Assembly: GCA_017411605.1 (NCBI GenBank)
Contig: JAFQPR010000086.1
Coordinates: forward strand, 1 to 63,991
Source of the DNA: Clostridia bacterium
GTDB taxonomy: Bacteria; Bacillota; Clostridia; Oscillospirales; CAG-272
Direction: 5' to 3'
Length of the DNA stretch: 63,991 nt
Notes under the pieces: model-generated
Database searches by the model: none
What the model was told of the DNA's origin: nothing
The model's input: only the letters and a program-made list of their open reading frames with translations
Part shown: positions 32,677 through 59,163 of the stretch, piece after piece
Position numbering within the stretch: position 1 is the first letter of the stretch
Layout: each line of letters begins with the position of its first letter
Translations under genes and position numbers: made by a program

Positions 32677-32705
32677 TTGACTATTTTAATGCGTTAGTGT
32701 AAAAT
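32677..32705 (+). promoter_or_regulatory. Promoter of giant protein gene 1
   Basis: -35 TTGACT (32677-32682) and -10 TAAAAT (32700-32705) with a 17-nt spacer. The leader of about 117 nt can form CTTCAGCG/CGCTGAGG and GGCTTT/AAAGCC stems; I recognise no known riboswitch in it. Confidence 0.65.
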
Positions 32706-32828
32706 ATATACAGCATAACTATACAATTCCGTTCTCCGCAGCTTCAGCGAGGGATTTACGGGGAAGGAAGTGTGATGCGAGGCTTTGAAAAAGCCGCTGA
32801 GGAAAAATATTTTTTAAGGAGAAAATAT

Positions 32829-35800
32829 ATGAAGAAACTTAGCAAAGTATTGATTCTTGTGCTTTCTTTGGCTGTTGTTCTTACGACGCTTGTAATTGTT
32901 GCGAGCGCTGATACGGGCAATGTAGCTAAGGTTGGTACCAAGGAGTACGCTACTATCGATGAGGCGCTTGAAGCAGTGAGTGCAGGCGGTGGTGAGATCG
33001 TGCTTCTTGATGATGCTTCTATGGATAATTCCGTGAGCATCGCAAAATCTGTAACAATTAATCTCGCGGGTAATACGCTTACCGCGTGCTCGGATGCATT
33101 TGCCGTAGCGCCGGGCGGTACCCTTACCGTAACGGGCGAGGGAACTGTTGTTGCTGATACTAATTTCGTAACTACTGCCGTGACCGATGAAAAAACTCAG
33201 TCTGTAAAGATCATCGGTACGGATAGCGGTATTGATATCGTTGTATCGGGCGTGCTTGTAAAAGCGGGCTCGGGAACGTTCAATTTCAAGAATCTTAACG
33301 TAGTTGACGACGTTGTAACGGGAAACCACGGTATTTTCGAGACCGTTGATAAGGCTGATGCGAAATTAAATTTCACAGCGGTTGAAGCGACTCTTACCGA
33401 GGGTGTCAACAACTACAGTTCAATAGTAAGACTCTTGGGAACTGCATCTGTAAAGACGAATTATTGTACCTTTACTTCAAACAGAGTGGTATTTGGCTTT
33501 GGCGCGTATGATGGCAAGGACGTTGCTATTGAAGCTGATAATTCATATTTCTCGAGCCGTACGCCCGCAGCAAGCGGCAATAAAAATCACGAGCTTGGAG
33601 TTATAGGAACGTATGCAACCGTTTCTTGCCAAATGATATTCAACAACTCTGTTATTGAGAGCTCGTTCAGACCCATCTGCCTTAATGCCACGAGCGAGGC
33701 AATGGTAGTGCTTAATAACTCGGCTATCAGGCAAAACGGTATTACGAACGGAATGATAGCGCGTACCTGCTCTATCACGGTAAATTCCGGTTCATCTCTT
33801 ACGTCGTCAGCCGTTCTTTCAACAATGCAGCACGAAAATTGCGAGGCTGACGGTACGTACATAATCCTTATGCCGGGCGCGCGAATGAATAAAGGTGTTT
33901 ACGATACTATCTTCGAATCCGGTCATACGGAAGGCATGAGATACGGTGAGCTTGTTACTCTTGAGGACGAGACCACTTCTCTTGAGCTTTCTCTCATTCC
34001 CGAAAATGAGAAATTCACCGTTATTTACGATCCCGTAGGAAGCAGGGAAGCTCCCTACGTCGTTGTAAAGAGAACGTATGAAACCGATGCAGGCGGAAAT
34101 ACGGTTGAGACCACCCCGTCGGGCGCATCGATACCCGAGAATATTTATTATCAGGACTTCAACGATATTCCAGGCGGAGTAATATGGGATAACGGTCAAA
34201 ACGGCCCCTCTTATTCAGCTGCTTTTCTACCTGTAAAAGCCTTCCTCGGATGGAACCCAAACGGCATTATTTCGGGCGTTCATTATGCGGATAACGGCGC
34301 TATAAGACTTGAAAACGATGAGCCTAACGCATCGAAGAATAATACCACGTTGGTATTCGGTGACGGCAAGGGTTATGCTCATAACGAGTATCAGGTATTT
34401 GTAGCCGAGGCAGATATTGCCTTTGATTCTCCTTTGGGTATCCTCGCGAGTACGATGGCAATTTGCGCGCGAGGAGAGAACAACGGCGGTGACTACGCAA
34501 GCACGAAGCTCAGCTTTACCACTGACGGTAAGGCTACCGTGGGTTCAACCTCCGCAGACGTTTCGACTACGGGATGGAACCACCTGACCGTCGTAGTTTA
34601 CTCCGATAAGGGTGTGACGGGTACGTCCTGCAAGGGCGTAGCTCATTACTATTTCAACGGTGAGTATCTCGGAAAAAGCAATGCTTATAATATAACGGGA
34701 AAGAACGGTAACGTTGCGTATCTTTGGGGACTTCGTTGCGATATTAACGCTTCTACGTCTGTGATTGGTTCATCGGTAGTATTTGATAACGTACGCTATG
34801 CGACTTATACGGACTATATCGGCAGCGAGGCTGACGATCCCATTATCTATTCCGAAAATGCGGGTATGCCCGTGAACGTCGGTGTGCCAACCAATGCGAT
34901 CACCATAGGCGGAAGAAGCTTTAACAGTATAAACGAAGCGATTGAAGCGGGCAAAGATCTTGGTGTTTCTCCTATACTTAAGGGCTCTGTTTCGAACCAG
35001 CTTGTAACCGTGGACGGAACAGTTTATACCAAGGGTAATAGCATTGGTATTACGGAAGGCTCGAACAGTGCTATGATCAAGTACTACGATGACGGTCAGC
35101 TGAAGAGCTACACCTTCAATGCAGGCTACAATGATCTTTATGCCACCTATAAGTGGTTTGTTGGAAACAAAAATAACAAAGACGAGCTTTGGGATGACTC
35201 GAAGTACGTTGAAACGCAGGTTCCGCTCGGCTACGTTCCCGAATATGATGGCGAAGCTCTTCCTGTATTGACCGAGCATATCGGTCAGAAGATATTCGTT
35301 ACGGAGCACATAGGTTGGTCTTCGGATCCGTTTGCTGAGACTCCCGAAAATCTCAATGCGTTATCGCTCAGTGATGCGATAAACCTTGCAGGCTCTTCGG
35401 TGAAGCTCTTCCCCGTATATACGAAGAAGGAAGTAACCGGATACAGTGTTATCGTTCTTGATGAAAACGGAAACTTCAAGAGAGGAGTAAATCCTCCCTC
35501 GAATGTTTACGGCTCCGACTGGTACAGAGCGGATAAGCCCCAGGGCATCTGGCTTGAGTACGGTGAGACCTTCGTGCTTATGACGAGTAATATCACCTGG
35601 GTTGGCTCATTCCAATCTCCGAGAGCCGCAACGGGCGTTGATAAGGTATTCAGCTTTGACCTTAACGGTTATGAAATGAAGATAGACGGCGCGAAGAATT
35701 CGGGCGGTAAATCTCCGAACTTCTTCCAGGCGTACAAGGGCGAAACTATAAACTTCTACTCATCCGTTCCCGGAGCTAAGGTTATCGCTCAGGGCACGAA

Positions 35801-37766
35801 CGAAGCTGCTACCTCTCCTGTGGGAAGCAATATCTTCCAGATGTACGGATGTTCATCTTCTTCGTCGGGACACACTCATACAATTGCGGAAAATACGGGA
35901 GATACAGCTCAGAACACGAATATAAATATCGGAACGGTTACCCGCTTCGGTAAGACCTACGACGGCTCGAATCTCACGTTTGAGGGTGACTGTCTCGTTG
36001 ATATGCCGTCGGGCGATGCTACCTGTAAGGTCAACGTTGACGGTATAACCTTCATTAAGTCCTTTACGGGCAGAGGCCACGTATTTGCAAGCAGCTATTA
36101 TAACGGCTCGCTTGACGTTAAGAACTGCAATTTCTTCTTCCCGAATGGCAAACAGCTTATTACGGGATACAACTCCGGTCTGTCCGACTATAACGGAGAC
36201 GGAAGCAAAAACGAAAAGGACGTTCAGAAGGCTGAGTCCGAAGGTGCTGTGGGATACAGAACCGCAGCGAAATGCGCTTTCGACGGCTGCTATATATTCT
36301 ATAAGACGAACAGCACGACCAGCGCTGAAAGCCTTGTCGGTAACGACTATACCTTGAAGAGCGTTATCTTCACGAACTGCGTAACCAACGCGAGAATAAA
36401 TCCCTCGAATACAGGTATGGCAGTAAGGATCGGTGACGGATGTCTTGTATATAACCCCTCGGCAACGAAGCTTGACGGAATAACAGGTTATAGCTACAAT
36501 CGCGATATGACCTTCGGTACGTATACCGATGCGGAAACTGTGACCGTAAGATACGTAACGGGCGTATCGATGATCAACAACAATAAAACGAACGTTACCT
36601 ACAGTTACGATGAGTTCACGTTTGCGCTTCCGGGCTCGAACGCGGCTGCGGACTTAGTTCTTCCTTTCTTCGCAATTAAGTTTGTCTCCGCCGATAATAC
36701 GCACACCGTAACCTACGTTGATGAAAACGGCAGCGAGCTTGCAAAGCAGACCTATGCGGACGGCGCAAAGATAATAGCTCCCGAGTTTGAACCTGCTTTG
36801 AGCGGTAACGTAGTCTCTCTTGTATTTGACGGCAAGTTTACCACGGAAGCTCCCGAGAGTGTTGAAGAGGATATAACTCTTACTCCTGTATACGTTACGG
36901 TAGCGAACGTAACGGGACTCAAGTCAAATCTCTCGCTTCACGCTGATTTCATTCTTAACCTTATGCTCCCCGCTGAGTATAAGAATTACGTTGTATCCAT
37001 AGTGAGCGGCGGCGAAGAGCTTGAGATTAAGGATACGGCGGTTGAAGGCGTAAGCTACGTAGTCGTATCGGTTCCCGTATTCGCAAAGGACGCGGGCAAG
37101 GACGTTGTCTTTGATATCGCGCTTTCCGAGAACGGACTCGATTATACCAAGACAGTAACCTACAGTGTTGTAGGCTACGCTGAAGAGCTTCTCGGCGGTG
37201 GGGATTACGTTTACACCGAGGAAGATGAAACTCTTCTTTGGTACGCAATGAATTATGCAAACGAAGCGGCTCTTTACTTTAACGGTGAAGAGGATGAAAA
37301 GCTTGCAGCTTTCCTTGATGCACATTCGTATATGACAGACGTCATACCGGAGCTTGAATATGAAAACGTTATTGAATCCACAGGACTTTCATCGGTATTC
37401 GGTATGGTAAATATGAAGCTCGACGAAACTCCGAAATTCGTATTCACCGTTAAGGCGGGCTTTGCAGGCACCGTAACGGTAACCACGAGCAAGGGCGACT
37501 ATACCTTCACTGTTGAAGCATCCGATGCTGATACAAAGCTCATAGTCGAAGGACTTAAGGCTTACGAGCTTGCAGAAACCTTAAATATTAAGGTAGCAGG
37601 CACGCTTGGTGAAGAGCAGATAGCGATTGAAAACGGTCAGATGAACCTTGCAACGTTTGCAAATTATCATAGCGTAAACGCGGAAACGAGCGAAGCGTCT
37701 GCGGCAGTATGTGATCTTTTGTATGCTCTTTACGGCTACGTTTCTTATTCCGTGAACTTCAAGTAA
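32829..37766 (+). CDS. Giant secreted beta-helix protein, paralog 1
   Basis: A 1645-residue secreted protein. A signal peptide with cleavage expected after residue 27 (VASA-D) is followed by a first region of beta-helix-like strands (about 40-390), a conserved YDPVGSREAPYVVVK linker (400), a LamG-like beta-sandwich (about 440-660, with GWNHLTVVVYSD), a short YKWFVGN segment (about 778), a second beta-helix-like region from FDLNGYEMK (about 940), and a C-terminal domain (about 1358-1645) with LKSNLSLHADFILNLMLP. It holds one EF-hand/dockerin-like loop, DYNGDGSKNEKD, near residue 1120. It is the most divergent of four tandem paralogs. AAGGAG precedes the start; an upstream frame from 32772 is leader. 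No anchor motif. Function unknown; surface adhesion or glycan binding is inference. Confidence 0.85.
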   Translation: MKKLSKVLILVLSLAVVLTTLVIVASADTGNVAKVGTKEYATIDEALEAVSAGGGEIVLLDDASMDNSVSIAKSVTINLAGNTLTACSDAFAVAPGGTLTVTGEGTVVADTNFVTTAVTDEKTQSVKIIGTDSGIDIVVSGVLVKAGSGTFNFKNLNVVDDVVTGNHGIFETVDKADAKLNFTAVEATLTEGVNNYSSIVRLLGTASVKTNYCTFTSNRVVFGFGAYDGKDVAIEADNSYFSSRTPAASGNKNHELGVIGTYATVSCQMIFNNSVIESSFRPICLNATSEAMVVLNNSAIRQNGITNGMIARTCSITVNSGSSLTSSAVLSTMQHENCEADGTYIILMPGARMNKGVYDTIFESGHTEGMRYGELVTLEDETTSLELSLIPENEKFTVIYDPVGSREAPYVVVKRTYETDAGGNTVETTPSGASIPENIYYQDFNDIPGGVIWDNGQNGPSYSAAFLPVKAFLGWNPNGIISGVHYADNGAIRLENDEPNASKNNTTLVFGDGKGYAHNEYQVFVAEADIAFDSPLGILASTMAICARGENNGGDYASTKLSFTTDGKATVGSTSADVSTTGWNHLTVVVYSDKGVTGTSCKGVAHYYFNGEYLGKSNAYNITGKNGNVAYLWGLRCDINASTSVIGSSVVFDNVRYATYTDYIGSEADDPIIYSENAGMPVNVGVPTNAITIGGRSFNSINEAIEAGKDLGVSPILKGSVSNQLVTVDGTVYTKGNSIGITEGSNSAMIKYYDDGQLKSYTFNAGYNDLYATYKWFVGNKNNKDELWDDSKYVETQVPLGYVPEYDGEALPVLTEHIGQKIFVTEHIGWSSDPFAETPENLNALSLSDAINLAGSSVKLFPVYTKKEVTGYSVIVLDENGNFKRGVNPPSNVYGSDWYRADKPQGIWLEYGETFVLMTSNITWVGSFQSPRAATGVDKVFSFDLNGYEMKIDGAKNSGGKSPNFFQAYKGETINFYSSVPGAKVIAQGTNEAATSPVGSNIFQMYGCSSSSSGHTHTIAENTGDTAQNTNINIGTVTRFGKTYDGSNLTFEGDCLVDMPSGDATCKVNVDGITFIKSFTGRGHVFASSYYNGSLDVKNCNFFFPNGKQLITGYNSGLSDYNGDGSKNEKDVQKAESEGAVGYRTAAKCAFDGCYIFYKTNSTTSAESLVGNDYTLKSVIFTNCVTNARINPSNTGMAVRIGDGCLVYNPSATKLDGITGYSYNRDMTFGTYTDAETVTVRYVTGVSMINNNKTNVTYSYDEFTFALPGSNAAADLVLPFFAIKFVSADNTHTVTYVDENGSELAKQTYADGAKIIAPEFEPALSGNVVSLVFDGKFTTEAPESVEEDITLTPVYVTVANVTGLKSNLSLHADFILNLMLPAEYKNYVVSIVSGGEELEIKDTAVEGVSYVVVSVPVFAKDAGKDVVFDIALSENGLDYTKTVTYSVVGYAEELLGGGDYVYTEEDETLLWYAMNYANEAALYFNGEEDEKLAAFLDAHSYMTDVIPELEYENVIESTGLSSVFGMVNMKLDETPKFVFTVKAGFAGTVTVTTSKGDYTFTVEASDADTKLIVEGLKAYELAETLNIKVAGTLGEEQIAIENGQMNLATFANYHSVNAETSEASAAVCDLLYALYGYVSYSVNFK

Positions 37767-37993
37767 TTTTGCAGGGCAAAATTGCAATGAATTGCCTATC
37801 GTCTTTTCTTAATGCGGTTTACCGCAATTTGTGACACATAGTGTCAATTCATGCCGATAGGCAATTCATTAAATGATACGAAAACATCAATTTATGGCGG
37901 CAGAGCCGTCAATTCATGAAATCTTTGATTTCAATTCATTTTTCTGATTTATTAGCAAATGCTTATAAATAAATTAAAAAGGAGAAATCCAAA
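37767..37993 (+). repeat. Hairpin array between paralogs 1 and 2
   Basis: A 227-bp spacer built of short palindromes spaced by CAATTCAT: AATTTTGC/GCAAAATT (37765-37783), a 14-bp perfect stem TGAATTGCCTATCG/CGATAGGCAATTCA (37788-37801 with 37855-37868) enclosing TGCGG/CCGCA and TGACAC/GTGTCA hairpins, then GCGGC/GCCGT and TGAAATC/GATTTCA (37917-37933). The last is followed by a T-rich stretch and could be a weak terminator. No convincing promoter is seen for gene 2. Confidence 0.75.
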
Positions 37994-40900
37994 ATGAAAA
38001 AGTACAGCAAAATCTTGGTTTTGATTCTGTCGCTTGCGATTATATGCACGGGACTTATACTCGCAGTCAGCGCAGAAGACGAAACCCCGACCTTCGATCT
38101 TGTATCGGCGATCCAAAGCGCAAAAGACGGCGATACGATCGTAATGACGGGTAATGCGGAAATAACCGCTTCCCACGGTGACCAATGGGGTGCGGTTGCC
38201 ATTAATAAGAACCTGACAATTGATCTCAACGGTTATACTATTACGACGTCGCATTCAAACCGCGCGTTCAACGTTCAGACCGTTGGAAAGCTCTTCACTA
38301 TCACTGGTAGCGGAACTATTAACGCCACCGCAGGTGATTTGTTTAAAACCGGTGGAAATAACACTGCCGGAATTCAGATGAACGTTATAGGCACAGGTAA
38401 AGGTATAACGATCAATCACAGCGCTGCCTCGAATGTTCTTGAAGCGGCTGGCGGAGCCTTCAGATTTGAGAACGTTACCGTAAATTCGTCTTCGACGACT
38501 GCGGTTTTCAATGCGTCTGCCGATGCATCTATGGCTTTCGATAATGTCACCGTTGATCATACCGGAACGTCGTATTTGATTCAATTTGCCAATGGAAGCG
38601 TCGACGTCAAAAACTCAACGATTAAAACAGCCACGGCGGCTGACGTTTTCTATACCGGTGGAACCGGCGCGATGTCCTTCGTAGGCGTAAACGTAACTAC
38701 GTCAAAACTGATTAATGGTCAAAAAGCTGTGTTCAACCCGGGAACCAAAGCTACCGTTAGCCTTGATTACTGCCGAGTTGAAACAAAAGGCCATTCTATC
38801 TTCGCGACTCCTACTGCCACTGAAAAAGTAGAGAATTACATCGTAGTTGATCACTCGTACCTTATGGCAGCATACGGTAACGGTGGTTTTACGTCATTGC
38901 TTTATAACAGTTATGGAAATCTTGGAAGTGACGTTGTTATCAGTAACTCCTTCGTTTCCTGGAACTCGAGAATCCTTGTAAAGCATAGTGTTAATAACAC
39001 TGCTTTGATATTCAAGAATACCGAGATTCTCTTTAACGGTAAGCAGGGTAACTTCTTCCGTTCCTTGAACGTTAAGCTTGAGGAAGGCTCCTGGATGCAC
39101 GGTAACCACAGCTACTATCCCACCGATACGACCTTCTATTCAAACTATGATAATAGCGGTCCGATGACGGTCGGAGATAATACCTCTGTTTACTTGCTTA
39201 TCTCCGAGGGCGCTCGCTTTGATGAAGCTACCTATAATAAACTCATCAAGCGCACCGGACTTTCTAAAGATCCCAAAACAGAAAAAGATTCATCCGGTAA
39301 CACGGTAACTGTTACAGATGAAAACGGAAATCCTGTTTACAATACTATTACTTTCTATAATGAAGGCTACGTAGCTTATCCCGATGGCTCATCGCCCACG
39401 TCCAGCACGACTTATAAGATGGTCTTTGATCCCATAGGCAATCCCGATGCTCCTTACGTAGTTGTTAAGGCGGATGCGGCTGATACTGTAGCAAACGTTC
39501 TTCATTTTAGCGATAATCCTCAGCTTATAACGAGCTATCACGAAACGGGTACCGCAAAAAATGTTTATTTTGACTCCAAGAATTTCTATAGCTTCACTTC
39601 TAACGGTAAGCTTAATTCCGATGGCAAAGCACCCAACTATATGTGGGGCATAAAGCACGGAAACGGTATTGCTGCGAAGGATCACGGCGTATTCGTATTT
39701 GAGTTTGATCTTGCAACCGATAGCGAGGTTGGCTTCACCGAAACTCTCGTAAATATTCACGCGAGAGATGACGCGGCAGGTAGTAATAACAAAGCAACCG
39801 TGGGCTCGCTCTTCAAAATCAAGAAGGACGGTACTGTTTATAAGACCGCATGGACTCTTAATGAAGAAACGGGCGAGTATGCTGACGTTGAGACCAAGAC
39901 CGACGTTAAGCTTTCTCTCAACTCTTGGAACCACGTAACTATCGTAGTTGATACGTCGGTAGAGGGAGGCGTTGCTTACGCTTATGTAAATGGTGTTCTT
40001 GTAAATACTCACGTAGCCTACGAGGAAGAGGCATATCTCTTCGGTCCGAGATTCAATCCCACTAACGCGGGCGCTAAAGATACAGGCTCTAACTTCATCG
40101 TAGATAATATTATGATAAGAACGGGTGAGGACGCTGTTACAGATAACGGTCTCAGCTATCTCGTTAACGGTGGCAAGACCTGGAACTCGAACTATGTATA
40201 CAGCAATGCTGCCACCGTAGGTGGCGTTAATATCAAGCCCGACGTTGAAAGCATTCTTACTCTTCAGAATGAGCTCGGCGTAGTAGCTAAGCTTAATAAG
40301 GACATTATTGAGCCTCAGACGGTAGTAACAGAGGGTACTATCTTCGCAAACGGACATACTATCAACGTAGCTGACGGCTCTGTTGCTTACGCTGTCGAAA
40401 ACGGTGCAGACGGCTCCGATTACGGATACTACGTATTCGACGATGCATTTGCAGAGCTTGTTGCAAAGTATCAGTTCTATACGTCTCTTAATACCGATGC
40501 TGAGTCCCTCGCAGATCCCAACAACTGGACTGCGGTAGGAGAGACCGACATTAATACGCCTCTTTCGACTCTTTATGCGGGCGCAGCTCTTCCTATCATC
40601 GGTAAGTATTCCGATACGGGTTATCTTACTTCTGCTCATATAGGCTGGGCAACTACTCCCGACGCGAGCGAGCCCAGAACCTCTCCCGCAACCGAGGATG
40701 AGGCAAAATCGGGCGAAGTAATCAAGCTTTATCCCGTTTTGAATTATAAAAAGGCATATAGCATCGTTATTCTCGATGCAAACGGCAACTTCAACAGAGG
40801 CTTTACAGGCAATGTGTTCTGGGGATCGGGTCTCAGAAAGTTTGAGATGAAGTACGGTGAGACTCTCGTGCTTAACGCAAACGTAACCTCTCAGGCAAGC

Positions 40901-43057: not shown

Positions 43058-43464
43058 AAAACGTTCACGCAGTGAACATATCTTGCTCGCAAGCGAGCAT
43101 ATCGCGTCACTGTACGGTGATATATCGCATTTGCGAAGCAAATATATCGCTCTCGCTTAGCGAGACTCTTTCAGCCCGACTAGCTGAAGGAAAAAAGTTA
43201 CCTCGGCTTGACTATCCGAAGTAACTTAACCGTTTGACTGCAAACAATAATTAGCAAAATCCTTCATTTAATATATATTACGCGCGGTAGAAGGGAACTG
43301 ACTACTCCCTTTTACCGTCAGCGTAGTGTATATGTTTTTTCAACTTTTGGAAAACCGTATTTGGATTAAACCGTAAACTCTCATTGTTTAATCCAAACAC
43401 TGTCTTTCAAAGCAAGACAAGACTATTAATCAAAGCTACAAAAAAATAAAAAGGAGAAACGCAA
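43058..43464 (+). repeat. Hairpin array between paralogs 2 and 3
   Basis: A 407-bp spacer. Its first part is an array of palindromes spaced by ATATCG: GTTCAC-GCA-GTGAAC (43063-43077), TGCTCGC/GCGAGCA, ATTTGC/GCAAAT, TCTCGC-TTA-GCGAGA (43151-43165), and TTCAGC/GCTGAA (43170-43188). Then come three larger hairpins: 43195-43227, CGGTA-AAGGGA with TCCCTT-TACCG (43285-43317), and a 12-bp perfect inverted repeat TTTGGATTAAAC/GTTTAATCCAAA (43360-43397). No clear promoter was found. The start of the array resembles that after paralog 3. Confidence 0.75.
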
Positions 43465-46400
43465 ATGAAAAAACTCAGCAAAATCCTATGTTTGGTTTTA
43501 GCTGTTGCTCTCATCTGCACAGGACTTATTCTCGCGGTCAGCGCAGATGATTCTATCGAATATACGTTCGATCTTGCTACTGCAATTACAGAAGCGGTCG
43601 CGGATGAAAACGGTATGACAACAGTAAAGCTGACAGGTAACGCACAGGTCACAGAACCCTATGCGATTACCAAAGACGTAACTATCGATCTTAACGGCTA
43701 TACGCTGGATTCCACAGCGCATGAAGCATTCACCGTTAATGACTCGGTTAATTTCTCCATCGTTGGTGACGGTAACATTACTCTTGCGAGTATGCTTATC
43801 CAGTCAACGACTACGGAAGCGACCCCAAATGTAACTGTAAAGGGCTCGTTTGGCGGTATCAATATTACCCATACCGCAGCTCAGTCTAAATCTATCCTTC
43901 AGGCAGTCGCAGGTACCTATACCTTTGTAAACTGCGACGTTGCGGCAGTATGTGACACCGCGAGCTCCGCGGTATTTGCTATGACGGGTTCTCCCACCGC
44001 AACCTTTAACTTTATTGATGTAGATATAAACGTTACGGGCGCGGTAACAAGCAGCACCTCTTGCGAGGCTGTAATTTCCGCAACGGGCGCAGGTCACGTT
44101 AATATCACGTCCTCGACTATTATGACGGACGGTGTAGGCGTAAGAGTAAACGGTTCTTCCGCAACCGATGAGTTTTTAGTAATTAAAGACTCCTATCTCT
44201 GCGCAAGAAACGGTACTTCTAGCTTTGAGAACGCAGCTATTGGTATGTACGGAGTTATTCAAGGTGTTATCAAGATTGAGAATTCAACTGTTGAATCCTC
44301 ATATAGAGTCATAGCTATTAATCTTGAAAACCAGTCTCCCAATGCGGAGGTTGATGAGAACGGTGTAATTTCCACGACCACGGGCGGTAGAGTCCTCGTT
44401 TACGACTCTATTCTTTACCATAACGGTTTAAGACTCGGTCAGATAGCGAGAGCTGTTCCTACCTTCCTCTACGGAAACTCAAAGATCCTCATTGCTCATT
44501 CTAACGCAACAAGTGTTACGAGTATAGTAAACTTTGATACCGACGCGGCAGATTACGCAAAAACTAACAAATACGTAAACATTTATATGGCAGAGGGAAC
44601 GAGAGTTGCAAGAGAGAGCTTAACTACTAAAACAACTCAGGGTGTTAAATTCCCCGACGGCTCCTCTCCCGTAACGAGCGAGACGTATAAGTTCGTTTAC
44701 GATCCCGTAGGCGATCCCGATGCTCCCTACGTAGTTGCGAAGATAGACGATACTAGAGCGGACGCGTATTCCGACGCTGCAATTCATTGGTTTGCAAGCG
44801 GTAATGCGATGTACTCTGCTACAGCAGACCGTGAGGTAGTTTTTCAGAATGATGCAAGGGTTTCCGGCACTATAGCTTCCGATTTTGACATATTCCCGAC
44901 AAACAATCTCAGATGGAACAAGAGCGGTATCTATTCTATCAAGAATTACGACGGCAACCTAATGTTCGGTTATGAAACCTACGTAAAAGAAGGTAAATCT
45001 CCCGTTCTTAACTTTGGTAACCGTACTTACGTTTCCACTGCTGATTATGCTGTCTCGGGTGTTATGGTATTCGAGCTTGATCTCGCTACCAACTCCAATA
45101 TGGGCTTCCCCGCGATGTCATATAAGCTTGCAGCGAGAAAAACTAATACTAATAGTGGTGACTATTCAGGCGCGTCCACTATTTCTATCGCGAATAACGG
45201 CGCTCTCACCTTCAATTCCGCAACTGTACATAATCAGGTAAGCCTTAGCACCGAGTCGTGGAACAGAATATCTATTGTTGTTGACGTAGCTAATAGAACT
45301 GCGGAGTATTTCGTTAACGGTGTTCACGCTGCAACGGCAACCGATCCTTATGATGCGAATGCTTTCATTTACGGTATGCGTTTTGACGTTACCGCTAATC
45401 AGAATCCCGGTTATGGCTTCGTAGTTGATAATGCATTAATGGCAGTTTACTCCGCACCCAAGACAAAGACGGTTGACGGTGAAACTGTAAATTATGCTGC
45501 AGCCGATTATCTTTCTGCTATGGCGCTCAACGACGAGATAGTAAAGCGCAATATAACTGTTGGAGCGCAGGCTTATTCCGATCTTGCATCCGCTATGGTT
45601 GCTGCTGAGGCTCTCGGTACGGTTCCTCAGGTAAATGCCGATATCTCCGGTCAGACCGTAAAGGTAAACGGCTTCGTTTCCGCAAACGGACACACGATTG
45701 ATACGACCGACGGTTCTTACGGCGCGAACGTCGTATATGATGCAAACGGAAACGCGGTTTCTTATGAATTTAACATTACATACGATGCCGAAGTAACATA
45801 TAAGTGGTACGAAGGTGAGCTCGGTAATGCTGAGCAGCTCGCAGATCCCAATAACTATTTCGAAACTATTGTTGCGTTCGGTGATGTTCCTACCTATAAC
45901 GGAACTGTTGTTGGCGATATAGTTGATGAAGCAAACGGAAAGTATAACCCGATTGCTGGATGGTCGGAGAGCGCAGCAGCAACCGTTCCCGATGATTTAA
46001 CTGCGGTCAACACCGAGCTTCTCGAATCTCTCGGCGACGATCTCACCGTAACTCTTTATCCCGTTTATTCGGAGGATAAGACTCTTACCGTATCTGTTAA
46101 GGATAATGCAACCGGAAAGTATGTTTATATTACAGATACAACATCTCTCGACTCTTCCGTTTGGTCTAACTTCAAGGCTAATACCACCTTCAAGCTCTAC
46201 CGTGACTTCGATGTAAGCACTTCCAGCGGCTTCACCGCAAGTGAAAACGGTGCTACATATAACCTTGACTTTAACGGTCATACCATTTATTCCAAGGTCA
46301 AGAATACTTATATGTTTGTTAAAAACGGTGCAATTCTTAATATTTACTCTTCCGTACCCGGCGGTATGTTCTACGCTTTAGAGAACGTAGAGGGCGGTGA

Positions 46401-48381
46401 TAAATCGAATAAGGTTGGCGCAGGCGTATTCGTTCATATGAATGAAGGCGGTGGAGAGAATCTTGAAAATGCTAAGTCCAAGACTCAGGCTACCACTGTT
46501 AATATAGGTAAGGTAACCGTAGGTGATACTACTTATGACGGCTCTAACCTCACCCTCGCGGGTGACTGCGTCCTTGAGCCTCGTGTTGCAGGCTACAATG
46601 CAAGCTTTAATATTGACGGTGCGACTATGATTCGTCCCGGCTCAGACTACGGCGCGATGATCTTCAGCCGTTACTATTACGGAAGCATCAACGTAAAGAA
46701 TACTAACTTTATCGTTTATTCTAAGAACAGCTCTACCGGCGCAGGCAGTGCTATACTCGGTAACCATAATAACGGAAACGGCGCTGAGTGTCAGGCTACG
46801 TTTGAAAACTGCGTATTCCTCTTCGACACCAACGGCTCGACAAACGCTGTTCTTTCGGGCGGTAAGGGCTTTAAGTCCATCAGCTTCACAAACTGCGTAT
46901 CTAACGGAAGCTTCAATCCCGCTAATACGACCGCAGATGTTCTTAAGTTCGGCGAAGGCAACCTTTCTTCGAACATTACCGCAGGTAATGATTATATGGC
47001 GGAAGGTATCAAGAAGGTATATGCCAATATAGCAATGCAGATGCCCGACGTAACCCTTAACGGTTATAAAGGCTTTGTAAGCCAGGATGCAAACGGCGTT
47101 CTTAAGCTTAAGAGATGGGTATTCTCTAACGATACTTCGATCGGCGCGAATGGCGGAGCTGCCGATAACGGTTATCTCTACATCGTACCTAACGGATACG
47201 AGGGAACCGTTGATGCGACCGATGCAGACGTAGTAATCGAGCTTCCCGTTCTCACTCATAAAACAACGGCAAATACCGTTAACGTAACCTTCAAGGGACT
47301 TGGCGAAAACGAGAACAAGACCTATACTTACGCTGTAGGCGGTAACGTTGTAGCAGGTCAGGTATTCGTTCCCGAGTATCTTAAAAATGCTACTAAGTTA
47401 GTTGCTGACGGTAACTTTGTTGAAGAGCTCGCAACTAACCTTGCTGCAGACGGTGAATACGTATATACTCCTACCTACAAGGTAGAGGAAAACGTAACGG
47501 GTCTTAAGGCAAACCTTTCACTTTATTCAGACTTCGTAATCAACCTTTATATCCCCGCAAATATTGCTGACTTCGTGGCTACCGTAAACGGTGTTGCTCT
47601 TACCGAGGACGTGGTTGTTATTAACGGTGAGTCTTACGTAAAGGTAACTGTTTCCAAGGTTGCTAAGCTTGCATCTGAGGATGCGGTATTTGAGTTCGTG
47701 ATCGTCGAAGACGGCGAGACCGTATCTAAGACCGTTTCTATCAGCATAGTAGATTATGCATCCACCATTCTTGCAGGCGAATTTACCGATGCGGATAAGA
47801 TACTTATGTACTATATGCTGAACTACGTAAACGAAGCGGCAAAATACTTCGAGAATTCCGCAGATGCAACCGAAATCGCAAAGCTTCTTGCAGATAACGA
47901 GGAAAAATATGCAACCCAGACTATCTCTCACGAGTATGCAAATGCTCTTGAAGATACAGGTCTTGGTAAGATATTCGCATCCGCAGGTATTGAGCTTGGT
48001 GAAGCTCCCGCGTTTACTCTCGTTTCGAATGGTAAGTTTGCAGGAAAGGTAACCGTAACCTACGGTGACGGAAACGTAAGAGAGTTTAACGTTCCCGAGG
48101 ACTCAACGGGTACTTATGCTGTAACCGGTATGAAGATATTCAACTTCGGCGTTAATATCAATATCACCGCGGTTGGAACACTTGAAGGCGAAGAGGGCGA
48201 GCAGACCATAACGGGAACACTCAACCTTGATACTTACGCAAGCTATCACGCGGCGAATACCGAAAACGAAGCGTCCGCTAAGGTGCTTCCTCTCATCGAA
48301 GCTCTTTACGATTACGTAAAGGTAGCAGAGCAGTATAAAGCAGGCACTCTCGTGCTTCCCGAAGAAACTCCCGCAGAGTAA
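43465..48381 (+). CDS. Giant secreted beta-helix protein, paralog 3
   Basis: A 1638-residue paralog. Signal peptide to residue 27 (AVSA-DD), first beta-helix-like region (about 35-400) opening TFDLATAITEAVADENGMTTV, YDPVGDPDAPYVVAK linker (412), LamG-like region (about 530-665) with VFELDLATNSNMGF and SWNRISIVVD, TYKWYEGELGN segment (778), second beta-helix-like region from LDFNGHTIYSK (932), and C-terminal domain (1344-1638) ending VLPEETPAE. The ADENGMTTV phrase is shared with paralog 4 and the VLPEE end with paralog 2, so the copies are related in order along the array. AAAAAGGAGAAACGC precedes the start. No cell-wall anchor visible. Confidence 0.87.
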   Translation: MKKLSKILCLVLAVALICTGLILAVSADDSIEYTFDLATAITEAVADENGMTTVKLTGNAQVTEPYAITKDVTIDLNGYTLDSTAHEAFTVNDSVNFSIVGDGNITLASMLIQSTTTEATPNVTVKGSFGGINITHTAAQSKSILQAVAGTYTFVNCDVAAVCDTASSAVFAMTGSPTATFNFIDVDINVTGAVTSSTSCEAVISATGAGHVNITSSTIMTDGVGVRVNGSSATDEFLVIKDSYLCARNGTSSFENAAIGMYGVIQGVIKIENSTVESSYRVIAINLENQSPNAEVDENGVISTTTGGRVLVYDSILYHNGLRLGQIARAVPTFLYGNSKILIAHSNATSVTSIVNFDTDAADYAKTNKYVNIYMAEGTRVARESLTTKTTQGVKFPDGSSPVTSETYKFVYDPVGDPDAPYVVAKIDDTRADAYSDAAIHWFASGNAMYSATADREVVFQNDARVSGTIASDFDIFPTNNLRWNKSGIYSIKNYDGNLMFGYETYVKEGKSPVLNFGNRTYVSTADYAVSGVMVFELDLATNSNMGFPAMSYKLAARKTNTNSGDYSGASTISIANNGALTFNSATVHNQVSLSTESWNRISIVVDVANRTAEYFVNGVHAATATDPYDANAFIYGMRFDVTANQNPGYGFVVDNALMAVYSAPKTKTVDGETVNYAAADYLSAMALNDEIVKRNITVGAQAYSDLASAMVAAEALGTVPQVNADISGQTVKVNGFVSANGHTIDTTDGSYGANVVYDANGNAVSYEFNITYDAEVTYKWYEGELGNAEQLADPNNYFETIVAFGDVPTYNGTVVGDIVDEANGKYNPIAGWSESAAATVPDDLTAVNTELLESLGDDLTVTLYPVYSEDKTLTVSVKDNATGKYVYITDTTSLDSSVWSNFKANTTFKLYRDFDVSTSSGFTASENGATYNLDFNGHTIYSKVKNTYMFVKNGAILNIYSSVPGGMFYALENVEGGDKSNKVGAGVFVHMNEGGGENLENAKSKTQATTVNIGKVTVGDTTYDGSNLTLAGDCVLEPRVAGYNASFNIDGATMIRPGSDYGAMIFSRYYYGSINVKNTNFIVYSKNSSTGAGSAILGNHNNGNGAECQATFENCVFLFDTNGSTNAVLSGGKGFKSISFTNCVSNGSFNPANTTADVLKFGEGNLSSNITAGNDYMAEGIKKVYANIAMQMPDVTLNGYKGFVSQDANGVLKLKRWVFSNDTSIGANGGAADNGYLYIVPNGYEGTVDATDADVVIELPVLTHKTTANTVNVTFKGLGENENKTYTYAVGGNVVAGQVFVPEYLKNATKLVADGNFVEELATNLAADGEYVYTPTYKVEENVTGLKANLSLYSDFVINLYIPANIADFVATVNGVALTEDVVVINGESYVKVTVSKVAKLASEDAVFEFVIVEDGETVSKTVSISIVDYASTILAGEFTDADKILMYYMLNYVNEAAKYFENSADATEIAKLLADNEEKYATQTISHEYANALEDTGLGKIFASAGIELGEAPAFTLVSNGKFAGKVTVTYGDGNVREFNVPEDSTGTYAVTGMKIFNFGVNINITAVGTLEGEEGEQTITGTLNLDTYASYHAANTENEASAKVLPLIEALYDYVKVAEQYKAGTLVLPEETPAE

Positions 48382-48632
48382 TTTAAAATTTTTACCACGT
48401 TCGAAAAGTGAACGTATCTCATTCGCAAAAGCGAGTAAGTCTCCCCCCCGCAAGGAACCCGAAAAGTATTCGAATCTCCAAGCCTCCCTCCGGGAGGGAG
48501 GGGGACCGTCCGTGACGGTGGAAGGAGAGCGCGTAAAGCACTCAAGATCCCCAAGTTTCCCATCAAAGGAGCTTTAAAATACTCTCGCGAAAGCGAAAAT
48601 AATAACGGTCTAAATAACCGTAATTGACTGCA
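48382..48632 (+). repeat. Hairpin-rich spacer after paralog 3, MITE-like
   Basis: ACGTTC/GAACGT (48398-48416) and TCGC/GCGA hairpins at the start resemble a decayed copy of the array after paralog 2. Then a C-rich run, a 19-nt palindrome CCTCCCTCCGGGAGGGAGG (48483-48501) and ACCGTC-CGT-GACGGT (48505-48519), enclosed by CTCC/GGAG. The last block has the folded, cloverleaf-like appearance of small MITE-like elements of Clostridia. No ORF with features of a gene is present. Confidence 0.65.
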
Positions 48633-48634
48633 GA

Positions 48635-48673
48635 AGACCTCCTGTCTGACTAACGGGAGGTCTTTATTTTTTT
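48635..48673 (+). terminator. Terminator before giant gene 4
   Basis: AGACCTCC (48635-48642) pairs with GGAGGTCT (48656-48663) and is followed by TTATTTTTTT. It cuts off readthrough from the upstream genes. Confidence 0.85.
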
Positions 48674-48712
48674 ATTTTTATTTGTATAATAACACAAAAT
48701 ATAGTATTTTTA

Positions 48713-48741
48713 TTGACAAAAATATATAAATATTGTATAAT
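48713..48741 (+). promoter_or_regulatory. Perfect consensus promoter of giant gene 4
   Basis: TTGACA (48713-48718) and TATAAT (48736-48741) with a 17-nt spacer, both full consensus. The leader is about 136 nt, closed by GTACCGAAT pairing with ATTCGTGTAC (one bulge). AAAGGAGAGAATCC precedes the ATG. Confidence 0.85.
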
Positions 48742-48883
48742 TATGGTGTACCGAATTCTTGATTGGTAATTTTGCTTAAAACTGCGTTTTGCATTTATGT
48801 AAAGTGCCTAAAAGATTTTAAAAGTGATTCGTGTACAAAAATTTTAGATAAAAAGTAAAATAATAAAAAGGAGAGAATCCAAA

Positions 48884-51800
48884 ATGAAAAAACTCGGCAA
48901 AATTTTGAGTTTAGTTTTGGCTGTTGCCCTTATTTGCACGGGTCTTATCCTCGCGGTAAGCGCAGATGATACCAGCTTTGATCTCGCGGCTGCAATAGAT
49001 ACTGCAGTAGCAGATGAAAACGGTATGACAACAGTTACGCTTGATGGTAACGCTACGCTTGATACAGCGTATACGGTTGCCAAAGATCTCACTATCGACC
49101 TTAACGGTTATACTCTTACGAGTAGCGCAACAGATGCGTTCGTAATTGAATCTGCCGTTACCGTTAAAATTATCGGCGATGGTACGATAAATCTCGCCGG
49201 AAGACTCGTTAAGAGCTCCACCGCGGGCGCAGGTTATACTTTCACGATGAAAGGTACCACCGGCATAGAAATGAATCATATTGGCGCTGCAGCTCCTCAC
49301 ATCGTTCTTGCTGCAGGCGGAACGCACACCTTCGAGAAGGTTAACGTTCTTTCTACCAGAACAGGCGGTAATGAATTTGATGCATTCTTCAGAGGTACTC
49401 TTGACGCTGAAAGCAAGACAGGTAACGGTACAGCTGAAAATCTCAAATTCTACTTTAATACCTTCTCTTTCTATTCCGATGTAATTCCTGCGAAGCAGAA
49501 TGACCAGACATTTGTTATGCCTACCGGTACCGGTTCTTACGTCGAGTTCAATGATTCTACAGTCCTCAACGGCGGTACTCTCCTTTACTTTGGATATACC
49601 ACCGAGGATTCGGTTGAAGACGTTCTTTGTAACGTTTATGACTCAAATCTTCAGATAATCTCTACGGATAACAGACAGAGAAGCTGTCTCATATGGGGAC
49701 ATAAGAGCGACGGATCGGGTACCTTTGTTCTCTACGGAAGCGTAAACTTCTATGATTCCTACATAGGCGGTAACGCATACAGAGCAATTCACTTTGGTCA
49801 GGCGCTTTCCGGCAAGTTCCAGATAAACTTTGATCATACTGTAGTAGCTCATAATGGTGCAAACGATGCAACTAATAACAATGCGGACGATTCTATAATA
49901 GTTCGCGGCGCTTCGTTGCTCTTCAAGAATAATTCGACGCTCATAGGCATGGATGGCAGTCTCGGAATGAGCTCCGCCGTTATAAAGGCTGAGGTTGGAA
50001 CTCGTTTCAATAATGCGTTGGTTGGTGGTAGCTCGCATATCACTTGGATAGATTCGGATGGCGCTGCAGTTTCGAACGTGCAGATCGTGCTTGATCCCGT
50101 TGGAAATCTTCAGCATCCTTACATTGGTGTCACGGATTCTTCGGCAGCATATCTTCCTGCAGGTGCTTCCGCCATGACCTTCTATGCAATGGAATCTATG
50201 AGAGGTATCAATTCTCAGTCTCCTTACGGTATTATAGTTGACGGAGTAGGATCTTTTGCTAAGGTTGGCTGGGCTGAAGGTTGGCAGGCTGGATTTGCGC
50301 TTGAAGCAGGTGCTGCTACTACCGTAAGCTATGGAAATAATACATCCTTCAAGTATTGGATCAACCCCACTACCGCTTCTCCCAACTACGGTGATTCGAG
50401 AATTATCCCTAATAACGAAAAGGATTCTGCGGGCAATGTTACCGTTAAGCATGATAGCTTTATGATTTTCGGTACAGCTCATAACCTTGATTACTCTAAG
50501 CAGATCGCAAAGCTTGCAAGCACTAAGGTTGCAGTTTTTGAAATGGATATTGCAACGGATTCCGACTACGGATTCCCGAGAGCAGCTTTAAAGAGCCAGG
50601 CAAGAGCAGAATATACGGGAACCGGCGGCGGTGGAGATGCTTCGGGTGACCAGCAGTTCTATCTTAATAATGATGGTTCCTTCAGTAATGGAAACCTTGT
50701 TAATTTTAATGGTAACATTAAACTTAGCCACGAAAAATGGAACCACATCACCTGTGTTATGTATACCGACTCTGTTCTTAATGAGGACGGAAGTGATACT
50801 AAGATCGGTCAGAACTTCGTTTATGTAAACGGCGAGCTTCTTGGATACAGTAACTATGCATTCAAGAACAGTGCAGGATACGTTATGGGACTTCGCTTCA
50901 ATATCTCTCAGGGCGTAGATCAGATTGTTGGTGCGTCTATGCTAGTAGATAACGTTTCGCTCAGAGCCTATGGTGATTACCTTGGCGAAAACGAAGCGGA
51001 CGGAGCAGTAAAATCCCCCGATCTTTATCTTCTTAACGACGTATTTTACAAGAATAACACACCTGTCAACAATGATATAACTGCGGCAGGTAGAGCATAT
51101 TCCAATGTGAACGATGCAATAGAGGCATCTAATACTCTTGGCGTTAACGTAGAGCTCCATGATGATATCAACGAGGCTCGTGTAATAACCGAAAACGGTA
51201 CTATTGATACTAATGGATATAAGCTTGCTGTAGATCCCGCATCCTACGGCTTTGCAGTTGACGGTGATAAGTACACCTTTAACGAAGATTACTGGTACAA
51301 TGCATACTGGTACAACGGAGCGCTCAAGGATGAGGCTCAGATGGCAGATGACGCTAACTACGTTAAGACTGTTGTCAAGCTTGGATTTGAGGCAGACTAT
51401 GAAAACCTCTTCACAGAGGGCACGCCCGATTATACTCTCTTGCAGATTGTAACCCAGGATGGATGGGCATACGATGCTGATGCTACAGAGAAGGTAACGT
51501 CCTTCGTTCCTACTCTCGAGAACCTTGAAGCTGCTAAGGCGAAAGAGAACAGAATAGTCAAGTTCTATCCTGTTATTACCGCTGTTGATATGATCTATTG
51601 TATCAAGAATGCAGAGGGAACTATCTATGACGGCGGTGTTAATGCAGAGTCCGCTATTGCCGACCTTAAGGCTCTTCCCGGCGGAGAAACCTTCATTCTT
51701 CTTGAAGACGTAGTATTTAGCGAGGCTAACGTTTACCTTGTATCCACTGCAGAAACTCCCAGAACCATTAATATTGACCTTAACGGTAATACTCTCGCAA

Positions 51801-53926
51801 AGAGCGTAGCAGGCTCAATATTTGAGATTGGCGCTTACACGACTCTTAACGTTTATTCTTCCGTAGCAGGCGGTCTGCTTGTTGCAACCGTGACTAACGC
51901 AAGCGGAACAATCACCGATGGCGGTATCGCGTTTACCATAACCGATGGAACTAAAACGAGCGATGGTGCTTATGGATTTGCAAACGCTGATATTTATGCA
52001 AATCTCGGTGCAACCAGAGCAAACGTTGCAGAGGCTTACGTTAATGTTGGTAAGTTTGGCGATATCCCCGGCTCAAATATGGTAATAGTTGCCGAGAGAG
52101 CCCTCTACGGTCACAAGGGCGGCGAGAATTGCGCTATGACTGCTGACGGTGTAACCGTTATCTCAGCTACGTCTAACAATACCGCGCCCTTTGACGCTTA
52201 TGTTTATGACGGAGATATTTACGTAAAGAACTGTATCGTCTTCGCTCCTTACAAGCAGAATATAGTTAATGCTACAGGATTCTCCTCAAACAGTAAGTTA
52301 AGCGGAACAAGATTTGCAGGCTTTGAGGATGTTGTTATCACGTCTAATATCTGGCTCGAAAACGTTATTATAGTAAACAAAGTTGCAGGTATCGGCGATT
52401 CCGCCAACGATAACGTAGTATCTAATAACGGTGACCATGATCACGTGGCAATAACCTTCAAGAATGTTGTCTCTACAGGACGTCTTAACCCCTCTAACGA
52501 AGCAAGAAACTCTATGGACGGCTTCGTAGCAGCAGAGAAGCACGATTGTAAGAGCGCTAATCCTACAGCGGGTACTGTATCTGCAGTATGTAATGTTCCT
52601 ATGACGTGGCAGAGCATCGATCTCGGTATCACCGAGTCCGTGCTTGAGTTCAATATCCCCGTATATAATTCCGAAAGCGATGAAGTTACGAACTACGCAA
52701 CCTTCAATATCGCGAATAACGGCGAATCTATTGACGGACTTTCAAACGCATATAACCTTCCTATCCTCACAGGCGCAACAATTTACGCTGACGATGCTGT
52801 AAAGGTTAATTGGAAGGGACTTGGAACAAACGCTAATGTTAAGACTGAGTATTACGTACCCGGCACGCCTTACGTTTCTATAACTGCTCCTACCAATGTT
52901 GCAGAGTATAAGCTTAACGCGACTAAGTACGTATTCGACGGCAACTGGACGGGAATTCCCGAGGCGGGCACAGTTCTGACCTCAAGCGTTGACGTTATCC
53001 CCAGCCAGAAAGTAGTAGCAAACCTTCCCAGTCTTAAGGTTAACCTTTCGCTTTATTCCGACTTCCTTATGAACTTCTATATCCCTGTAAGCTACAAGGA
53101 TTATATTGTAAGCGTTAACGACGAGGAGCTCGGTGGCGACATCGTAACTCTTGGCGAAGGCGAAAATGCAGCTGAGTATTATAAGTTAACGGTTAAAATA
53201 CTTACAAATAATATTAATAAATCCGCTCGCCTTGAAATCAAGGTTAAGGAAGGCGAACATACTGTAACGAAGTCTGTAATTATGACAGTGTTCGGATATG
53301 TAACATCAATACTTGAAGACTTTAATAATGACTATAGCGACGCCGATGAAATTCTTGCTTACTACGTGCTTAATTATATAAGCGCTGCATATACGTATTT
53401 CAATGGCTCGGAATTCAGCGGTATGCTTGAGATCATTGATCGCCATGCAAGCAGATTTAGCAGTATAGTTGTAGATCATTCTTATGCTAACGCTCTTGAG
53501 AACACAGGTCTTGGCGGCGTATTCACTGAGGCAGGTATTAAGCTTGGTGAAGCTCCCGCATTCACGCTCGTACCTAACGGCAACTTTGCAGGAACCGTAA
53601 CCGTAACCTACGGCAACGGCAACGTAAGAACCTTCAAAGTACCCGAAGGCTCGACAGCTAAGATAGTAATCGAAGGAATGAAGATCTATAACTTCGGCGG
53701 CGACATAAACGTAACTGCAACCGCAGAAGATGGCACGATAGTTGCTGAAGGCAAGATCAATCTTGATACTTACGCTAAGTATCACAAAGAGAATGCTATG
53801 GATGCCACTTCCGCAACTCAGGCAGAATCGGAGCGTGCGCTTGAACTCATAAATGCTCTTTACGATTATGTAAAGATAGCTGAGCAGTTTAAGGCAGGTA
53901 CTCTTCAGTTTCCCGCTGCTGAGTAG
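48884..53926 (+). CDS. Giant secreted beta-helix protein, paralog 4
   Basis: A 1680-residue paralog. Signal peptide to residue 27 (AVSA-DD), first beta-helix-like region (about 35-390) with VADENGMTTVTLDGNATL, LDPVGNLQHPYIGVT linker (403), LamG-like region (about 549-690) with VFEMDIATDSDYGF and HEKWNHITCVMYTDS, a WYNAYWYNGALKDE segment (804), second beta-helix-like region from IDLNGNTLAKS (962), and C-terminal domain (1380-1680) with LKVNLSLYSDFLMNFYIP and a tail ending AEQFKAGTLQFPAAE. It is the only paralog with a perfect promoter, and a strong terminator follows. No anchor, so release or non-covalent retention is likely. Confidence 0.87.
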   Translation: MKKLGKILSLVLAVALICTGLILAVSADDTSFDLAAAIDTAVADENGMTTVTLDGNATLDTAYTVAKDLTIDLNGYTLTSSATDAFVIESAVTVKIIGDGTINLAGRLVKSSTAGAGYTFTMKGTTGIEMNHIGAAAPHIVLAAGGTHTFEKVNVLSTRTGGNEFDAFFRGTLDAESKTGNGTAENLKFYFNTFSFYSDVIPAKQNDQTFVMPTGTGSYVEFNDSTVLNGGTLLYFGYTTEDSVEDVLCNVYDSNLQIISTDNRQRSCLIWGHKSDGSGTFVLYGSVNFYDSYIGGNAYRAIHFGQALSGKFQINFDHTVVAHNGANDATNNNADDSIIVRGASLLFKNNSTLIGMDGSLGMSSAVIKAEVGTRFNNALVGGSSHITWIDSDGAAVSNVQIVLDPVGNLQHPYIGVTDSSAAYLPAGASAMTFYAMESMRGINSQSPYGIIVDGVGSFAKVGWAEGWQAGFALEAGAATTVSYGNNTSFKYWINPTTASPNYGDSRIIPNNEKDSAGNVTVKHDSFMIFGTAHNLDYSKQIAKLASTKVAVFEMDIATDSDYGFPRAALKSQARAEYTGTGGGGDASGDQQFYLNNDGSFSNGNLVNFNGNIKLSHEKWNHITCVMYTDSVLNEDGSDTKIGQNFVYVNGELLGYSNYAFKNSAGYVMGLRFNISQGVDQIVGASMLVDNVSLRAYGDYLGENEADGAVKSPDLYLLNDVFYKNNTPVNNDITAAGRAYSNVNDAIEASNTLGVNVELHDDINEARVITENGTIDTNGYKLAVDPASYGFAVDGDKYTFNEDYWYNAYWYNGALKDEAQMADDANYVKTVVKLGFEADYENLFTEGTPDYTLLQIVTQDGWAYDADATEKVTSFVPTLENLEAAKAKENRIVKFYPVITAVDMIYCIKNAEGTIYDGGVNAESAIADLKALPGGETFILLEDVVFSEANVYLVSTAETPRTINIDLNGNTLAKSVAGSIFEIGAYTTLNVYSSVAGGLLVATVTNASGTITDGGIAFTITDGTKTSDGAYGFANADIYANLGATRANVAEAYVNVGKFGDIPGSNMVIVAERALYGHKGGENCAMTADGVTVISATSNNTAPFDAYVYDGDIYVKNCIVFAPYKQNIVNATGFSSNSKLSGTRFAGFEDVVITSNIWLENVIIVNKVAGIGDSANDNVVSNNGDHDHVAITFKNVVSTGRLNPSNEARNSMDGFVAAEKHDCKSANPTAGTVSAVCNVPMTWQSIDLGITESVLEFNIPVYNSESDEVTNYATFNIANNGESIDGLSNAYNLPILTGATIYADDAVKVNWKGLGTNANVKTEYYVPGTPYVSITAPTNVAEYKLNATKYVFDGNWTGIPEAGTVLTSSVDVIPSQKVVANLPSLKVNLSLYSDFLMNFYIPVSYKDYIVSVNDEELGGDIVTLGEGENAAEYYKLTVKILTNNINKSARLEIKVKEGEHTVTKSVIMTVFGYVTSILEDFNNDYSDADEILAYYVLNYISAAYTYFNGSEFSGMLEIIDRHASRFSSIVVDHSYANALENTGLGGVFTEAGIKLGEAPAFTLVPNGNFAGTVTVTYGNGNVRTFKVPEGSTAKIVIEGMKIYNFGGDINVTATAEDGTIVAEGKINLDTYAKYHKENAMDATSATQAESERALELINALYDYVKIAEQFKAGTLQFPAAE

Positions 53927-58988: not shown

Positions 58989-59097
58989 TTTAAGTTCCTC
59001 CAAAATATTCATCCTTTCTATTGTAACACATATCTCAAAAAAAATAAAGGAATAAATGTAAATTATTTTAAAAATAAAAAAATATTTTAAATAAACC

Positions 59098-59126
59098 TTG
59101 ACCTTTGAGCGCGGGAAATGTAAAAT
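59098..59126 (+). promoter_or_regulatory. Promoter of trmL
   Basis: -35 TTGACC (59098-59103) and -10 TAAAAT (59121-59126), 17 nt apart, 37 nt before the start at 59164. Confidence 0.65.
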
Positions 59127-59163
59127 AGTATACATAACAAGCAAAATTCAGGGGAAAATGCTG

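Follow-up and report, generated by a model that had tools for sequence, protein, structure and literature searches.

In Gram-positive bacteria, large enzymes and adhesins at the cell surface are usually accounted for by routes that involve sortase, an S-layer or cohesin. In Methanobrevibacter smithii and Methanosphaera stadtmanae, adhesin-like proteins are described as having right-handed β-helical domains, membrane-anchoring helices and archaeal Big domains (PMC11532034). The multimodular secreted glycan degraders of Clostridium perfringens contain accessory modules, and some of them have been proposed to form complexes or to attach to the cell surface (PMC11525138). Described here is a row of four genes encoding giant secreted proteins, positions 32829-53926 of a 63,991-nucleotide stretch of DNA (the window) from an uncultured, Oscillospiraceae-related bacterium. 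The unclassified C-terminal domain (CTD) with which these proteins end is the real point of interest beyond the four-gene array.

The features of the locus are listed in Table 1. A preliminary description of the window had reported four same-strand genes of 1638-1687 codons, and indeed four plus-strand open reading frames (ORFs) are observed, all of them intact with zero internal stops. The length of 1645 residues for giant 1 is counted from an ATG; the mechanical ORF caller begins at a GTG at position 32772. The gaps in the array measure 227, 407 and 502 bp. That nothing lies between the giants holds as well, in that no ORF of at least 150 residues on the ORF list is contained in the gaps; one opposite-strand shadow ORF (42128-43141) extends into the second. 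The housekeeping neighbors noted earlier comprise, on the left, seryl-tRNA synthetase and guanylate kinase and, on the right beyond two unassigned ORFs, SecA. Between giants 2 and 3, at 43060-43165, approximately five short hairpins separated by ATATCGC-like spacers can be discerned by eye, and this is the sole cluster of such spacer words across the 26 own-genome stretches scanned. An Rfam search of the window returned one tRNA and nothing else. Several other explanations were considered: no sign was seen of a mobile element, a phage tail or split genes, and none of the 25 longest of 40 inverted repeat pairs would flip an intergenic region as expected of invertible promoters.

Table 1. Features of the giant-gene array and its surroundings (positions within the window).
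Feature	Positions	Strand	Remarks
Guanylate kinase	31836..32498	+	adjoins the array on the left in four genomes
Promoter-like site upstream of giant 1	32677..32705	+	10/12 consensus positions
Giant 1	32829..37766	+	1645 aa: leader, β-rich region 1, LamG-like region, linker, β-rich region 2, CTD
CTD of giant 1	36873..37763	+	
Giant 2	37994..43057	+	1687 aa, architecture as giant 1
CTD of giant 2	42161..43054	+	
Giant 3	43465..48381	+	1638 aa, architecture as giant 1
CTD of giant 3	47458..48378	+	
Terminator-like hairpin between giants 3 and 4	48633..48665	+	13 pairs and a T-run
Promoter-like site between the 48633 hairpin and giant 4	48713..48741	+	12/12 consensus positions
Giant 4	48884..53926	+	1680 aa, architecture as giant 1
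CTD of giant 4	52988..53923	+	
Right neighbor ORF	54078..55541	-	DUF6442 match under the cut-off; similar ORFs (by eye) on the right-hand side in G063 and L053
SecA	56232..59144	-	SecA-like ORF (by eye), same side in L053

The overall architecture of the giants follows closely what had been read from the sequence beforehand. All four begin with MKK[LY].K and a hydrophobic stretch ending in ASA or VSA at residue 27, as expected for the 27-residue signal peptide proposed; both this leader and the absence of a lipobox were judged by eye. There follow β-rich region 1, a DP[VI]G linker (DPVG or DPIG in all four proteins), a LamG-like region, a second linker, β-rich region 2 and the CTD. The strand originally termed SWNH-type reads GWNH, SWNH, SWNR and KWNH, and its tryptophan and asparagine are invariant in 14/14 aligned relatives. 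Full-length pairwise identity among the four giants is 27-37%. By region it amounts to 52-93% in the leader, 22-29% in β-rich region 1, 25-34% in the LamG region, 25-37% in the linker, 22-30% in β-rich region 2 and 34-64% in the CTD. Thus the CTD, which has the expected length of about 300 residues, is on average the best-conserved part of the giants after the leader, and the N-terminal two thirds have diverged further. None of the four proteins gave a Pfam or NCBIfam hit above the cut-off. Searches of PDB sequences with protein P0002, the CTD, three domain profiles and two outside relatives gave a best E of 0.079, and P0002 itself gave no PDB hit at E up to 1 and no PHROGs hit. The suggestion that these might be undescribed secreted proteins therefore stands for the Pfam, NCBIfam and PDB sequence searches, and a literature search with few terms and partial coverage returned no description of either the CTD or the array.

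The preliminary description had proposed looking for tandem arrays in relatives, and the same site does recur: guanylate kinase is adjoined by giant genes in each of four genomes, the copy numbers being 4, 3, at least 2 and 1. In G063, three giant ORFs of 1764, 1695 and 1602 residues (L094, L128 and L093) lie next to guanylate kinase. At least two are present in G065, in which the locus (L095) runs to a contig end, and one in L053, from the Oscillospiraceae bacterium MAG SIG656. L053 and G029 were counted as one genome because the giant ORF shares its length and ends. For G063 and L053, the correspondence of the right-hand neighbors was judged by eye. Proteins containing all four N-terminal parts number 14, namely five in the own genome (G000), six in G063, two in G065 and one in G029; one of these is truncated at a contig end, and in the first giant of G065 the CTD is too divergent for the profile. 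These four genomes were chosen for matches to the CTD or to guanylate kinase. In a search of 59 relatives, a set outside of which G063 and G065 lie, near-full-length matches occurred in G000 and G029 only, and the full architecture thus seems to be rare. In an unrooted tree of the giants, which displays several long end branches, giants 2-4 group together (98/98) and giant 1 groups with a member of the G063 array (96/94). This arrangement suggests that at least two types of giant predate the split and that the copies multiplied separately.

A search for other proteins ending in the same domain had also been proposed, and it is here that the locus opens outward. A profile built from 16 CTDs matched 34 times in the own genome, which is 2.8 Mb in size and 81.8% complete; some of the matches are contig-end pieces, and most lie on giant secreted proteins. 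The CTD is not private to the four giants; across the genome it labels a set of giant secreted proteins that includes many carbohydrate-active enzymes, and the system therefore extends far beyond the array. Among the 27 own-genome CTD ORFs that were scanned against Pfam, 14 contain a catalytic domain over the cut-off, the overlapping counts being five for GH95, one for GH29, four for the SASA acetylesterase and seven for the metallophosphatase. F5/8C, LamG, Big_5, MucBP and LRR_5 domains were also found, and no known wall-anchor domain was detected by Pfam in the 27. The element shared by the giants and these enzymes is the CTD, for which searches revealed no significant match to any Pfam family or PDB chain. 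Two further ORFs were observed near CTD-GH95 genes. At L028 11680-14756 an ORF that, judging by its motifs, may be glycyl-radical-activase-like and a 719-residue ORF lie between two such genes, and in L026 a 719-residue ORF with a similar start occupies the same stretch as another.

Within the genus, 32 of 69 genomes, counting the own, contain CTD matches, and one relative has as many as 31. The other 37 have none, and among the most complete genomes the domain is present in 7/22 and absent from 15/22, so it is not essential to the genus. Beyond the genus the CTD appears to be present weakly, with matches in 19 of 394 genomes in an even sample of the order (best other E 1.0e-17) and in 2 of 398 in a sample of the phylum, each count including the own genome. 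One ORF (L059) from the Oscillospiraceae bacterium U.4_5 MAG ends in a CTD with E 9.2e-15.

The usual routes of anchoring were searched for by profile. Sortase (PF04203) was found in neither the own genome (0/1) nor eight congeners (0/8), of which three reach a completeness of 90% or better with no more than 5% contamination; the controls were positive in 3/14. In the own genome, at 81.8% completeness, there were likewise no matches for the SLH domain (PF00395; controls positive in 4/14) or cohesin (PF00963; 1/14), and none for Omp85 (PF01103; 7/14), which served as a proxy for an outer membrane and hence for type 9 secretion CTD proteins. On the basis of the absence of sortase from 9/9 genomes and of SLH, cohesin and Omp85 from the own genome, the organism is probably a monoderm. 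Note that, since congeners without a CTD fall outside of the nine genomes searched, the missing sortase and the CTD may be unrelated.

The reading that we favor, and to which we would give an even chance, is that the giants are constitutive, secreted, non-catalytic proteins that bind or capture glycans as part of a CTD-tagged surface apparatus. They would be exported by virtue of the leader observed in their sequences and would be produced constitutively. The N-terminal two thirds, in which two related β-rich regions flank the LamG-like region, would provide the glycan-binding part, and the tandem copies would serve to diversify it. The CTD, in turn, might keep the giants at the cell surface or gather them into a single surface complex, together with some 30 further giant proteins of the bacterium, among them acetylesterases and fucosidase-family enzymes. 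No observation made here points to a host surface rather than to glycans of plant or other origin.

The expectation of constitutive expression derives largely from the DNA upstream of the genes. An AraC-like ORF lies within 500 bp upstream in 0/13 giants versus 26/38 other CTD ORFs with enough flanking DNA, as counted with a profile of our own making on ORFs from G000, G063, G029, G031 and G065; since five of the 13 giants sit behind another giant, eight are informative. Many of the enzyme-type CTD genes may thus be inducible and the giants constitutive. Against this, a short relative in G063 (L116 647-3202; 851 residues comprising β-rich region 2 and the CTD) does have an AraC-like ORF upstream. 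The promoter-like and terminator-like sites of Table 1 belong to scans that yielded, respectively, 27 sites versus a shuffle mean of 28.0, which is no excess, and 21 sites versus a shuffle mean of 16.1. Directly upstream of giants 2 and 3, nothing promoter-like scored above 9/12. By codon adaptation the five own-genome giants fall in the 79th-93rd percentile of 107 non-CTD ORFs. This measure was dropped as a proxy for expression when one of two reference genes, which from its sequence we take to be enolase, scored 0.715, below all five giants.

The uniform lack of an upstream AraC-like ORF in 13/13 giants would also suit a structural coat, in which the giants would assemble side by side as a sheath, an S-layer-like coat or a matrix, with the CTD as the assembly unit and glycan binding as a secondary property. 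Several co-linear copies of nearly equal size, the housekeeping surroundings and a genome in which no SLH domain was found are in keeping with such an arrangement. We regard it as unlikely, however, given that the copies are just 27-37% identical, unlike the subunits of one lattice, that a single giant occupies the site in L053, and that the CTD is common to enzymes that cut glycans.

The CTD itself is an internal duplication. In an alignment of 51 rows, its two halves align over 106 columns with a probability of 70 and E 4e-5 at the middle cut; E is at most 1e-4 at 8/10 cuts, and five shuffled controls gave E 0.044 or worse. The same comparison with 16 rows had earlier given E 0.065, which is not significant, one of three shuffles being better. 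The domain lies within 45 residues of the C-terminus in 42/53 ORFs and is internal in 11/53, a few of the ORFs being cut at locus ends. It is consequently no simple sorting tag. The fifth own-genome paralogue (L022), located at another site, and one giant of G063 (L117) bear an additional tail after the CTD, one also found in a non-giant CTD protein (L120), with phmmer E values of 8e-47 to 4e-105 among 11 tails. By its motifs this tail presumably represents an SGNH-type esterase, and in L022 it gave no Pfam hit at E 0.01.

These features bring to mind a docking function, whereby the CTD would be a protein-protein module analogous in function to cohesin and dockerin, and the giants and enzymes would form one extracellular complex that is not necessarily fixed to the cell. 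The duplication itself, the same CTD on enzymes and giants, the catalytic-looking tails behind some internal CTDs and the lack of cohesin in the own genome all accord with this idea. No partner module was found, however, and one domain carried by all members would need to self-associate; we consider such docking rather unlikely.

With respect to the N-terminal regions, the preliminary description had called them LamG-like and β-helix-like. The LamG assignment stands at the level of the family, inasmuch as PF13385 matches 9/14 members at E up to 1 with a best value of 1.8e-9. It does not stand for the four full-length window proteins, for which PF13385 is absent from the matches at E up to 1; the LamG region of giant 3 alone matches it with E 0.0099, under the cut-off. 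One member of the LamG set matches PF20585, a pectate-lyase-like adhesive domain, with E 0.075. As for the β-rich regions, that there are two of a kind is borne out by hhalign (probability 93.9, E 1.6e-7, versus E 0.24 or worse in five column-shuffled controls). The β-helix label is unconfirmed, as neither profile matched a PDB sequence and the rung periodicity is not significant: it was equaled by 160/300 shuffles for region 1 and 62/300 for region 2. By comparison, 7/300 shuffles were as high for the CTD, which outscored both β-rich regions, and 42/300 for the LamG region. That the regions are β-helices is suspected from strand-turn motifs such as TIDLNG. A motif of this type, picked after the sequences had been read, occurs 15 times in region 1 versus at most 4 in 200 shuffles, and 7 times in region 2 versus at most 5. 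Comparison with two own-genome ORFs, which we assume from a start motif to be pectin-lyase-like, gave no match.

Both β-rich regions have relatives elsewhere. The start of region 1 (the KDxTIDLNG motif) recurs in ORFs L055, L056, L057, L060 and L062 of MAGs labeled Prevotella, Eubacterium, Clostridia, Coprobacillus and Lachnospiraceae, with multiple occurrences per ORF in four of the five. We know of no name for this widespread module. Two small own-genome ORFs of 574 and 565 residues with leader-like starts (L032 4569-8017) match region 2 with E 6.8e-25 and 2e-18, respectively, and the LamG and CTD profiles recover neither of them.

The β-helix is a common fold among glycan lyases and hydrolases, and the giants might accordingly be undescribed enzymes in which one β-rich region is catalytic; no family match places these regions elsewhere. 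Columns with a charged residue or histidine conserved in at least 13/14 giants, however, number one in region 1, three in the LamG region and one in region 2, and the invariant columns of region 2 are mainly N, G, S, Y and P, plus one D. Within the limits of these loop-rich alignments, such a near absence of conserved charged residues speaks against catalysis and renders an enzymatic role quite improbable. Least probable is that the giants merely represent a common type of adhesin family, specific to the lineage and unconnected with any special system, for although large β-helical adhesin-like families exist in methanogens (PMC11532034) and relatives of β-rich region 1 occur in several clostridial and other MAGs, a CTD carried by both enzymes and giants and the lack of a known anchor domain in 27 ORFs do not fit.

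The favored reading, that of glycan-capturing proteins within a surface apparatus, can be extended into a bolder and more doubtful proposal. In part of a clostridial genus, the CTD could be the signature of an undescribed system for surface assembly that depends on neither sortase nor SLH nor cohesin. Dozens of giants, both AraC-linked enzymes and apparently constitutive binders, would plug into it via the duplicated domain, and the array beside guanylate kinase would supply variable glycan-capturing arms. The contrast underlying this proposal is that a genome of 2.8 Mb contains 34 matches to one unclassified domain yet yielded no SLH or cohesin match, with no sortase found in nine genomes. 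If the CTD does anchor or assemble its proteins, it would account for the retention of glycan-degrading tools by such bacteria and could serve as a sequence tag with which to locate the machinery in uncultured genomes.

How does the locus compare with known systems? None of the features searched for as marks of the sortase, SLH, cohesin and type 9 secretion systems was found here. PF20585 and surface adhesins of the PfbA type resemble the giants by analogy only, as β-helix-like surface adhesins of Gram-positive organisms; PfbA is attached to the cell wall, whereas there is no significant sequence relation to it and no sortase in 9/9 genomes here. Like the methanogen adhesin-like proteins (PMC11532034), the giants are very long, extracellular and present in multiple copies with a presumed binding role, although a β-helix is only suspected in them. 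They differ in that they combine a leader peptide and a LamG-like region with a CTD that enzymes also carry; no Big domain was found over the cut-off in the four giants, and other membrane helices were sought by eye only. As with the C. perfringens degraders (PMC11525138), large secreted enzymes with accessory modules are found among the CTD proteins. Those degraders employ cohesin and FN3, whereas no cohesin was found in the own genome and the shared module is the Pfam-less CTD, which occurs also on proteins without a recognized catalytic domain. In their workings the giants would resemble both large adhesin-like families and multimodular clostridial glycan degraders, and their shared end domain may point to a new way of building a glycan-gathering cell surface.
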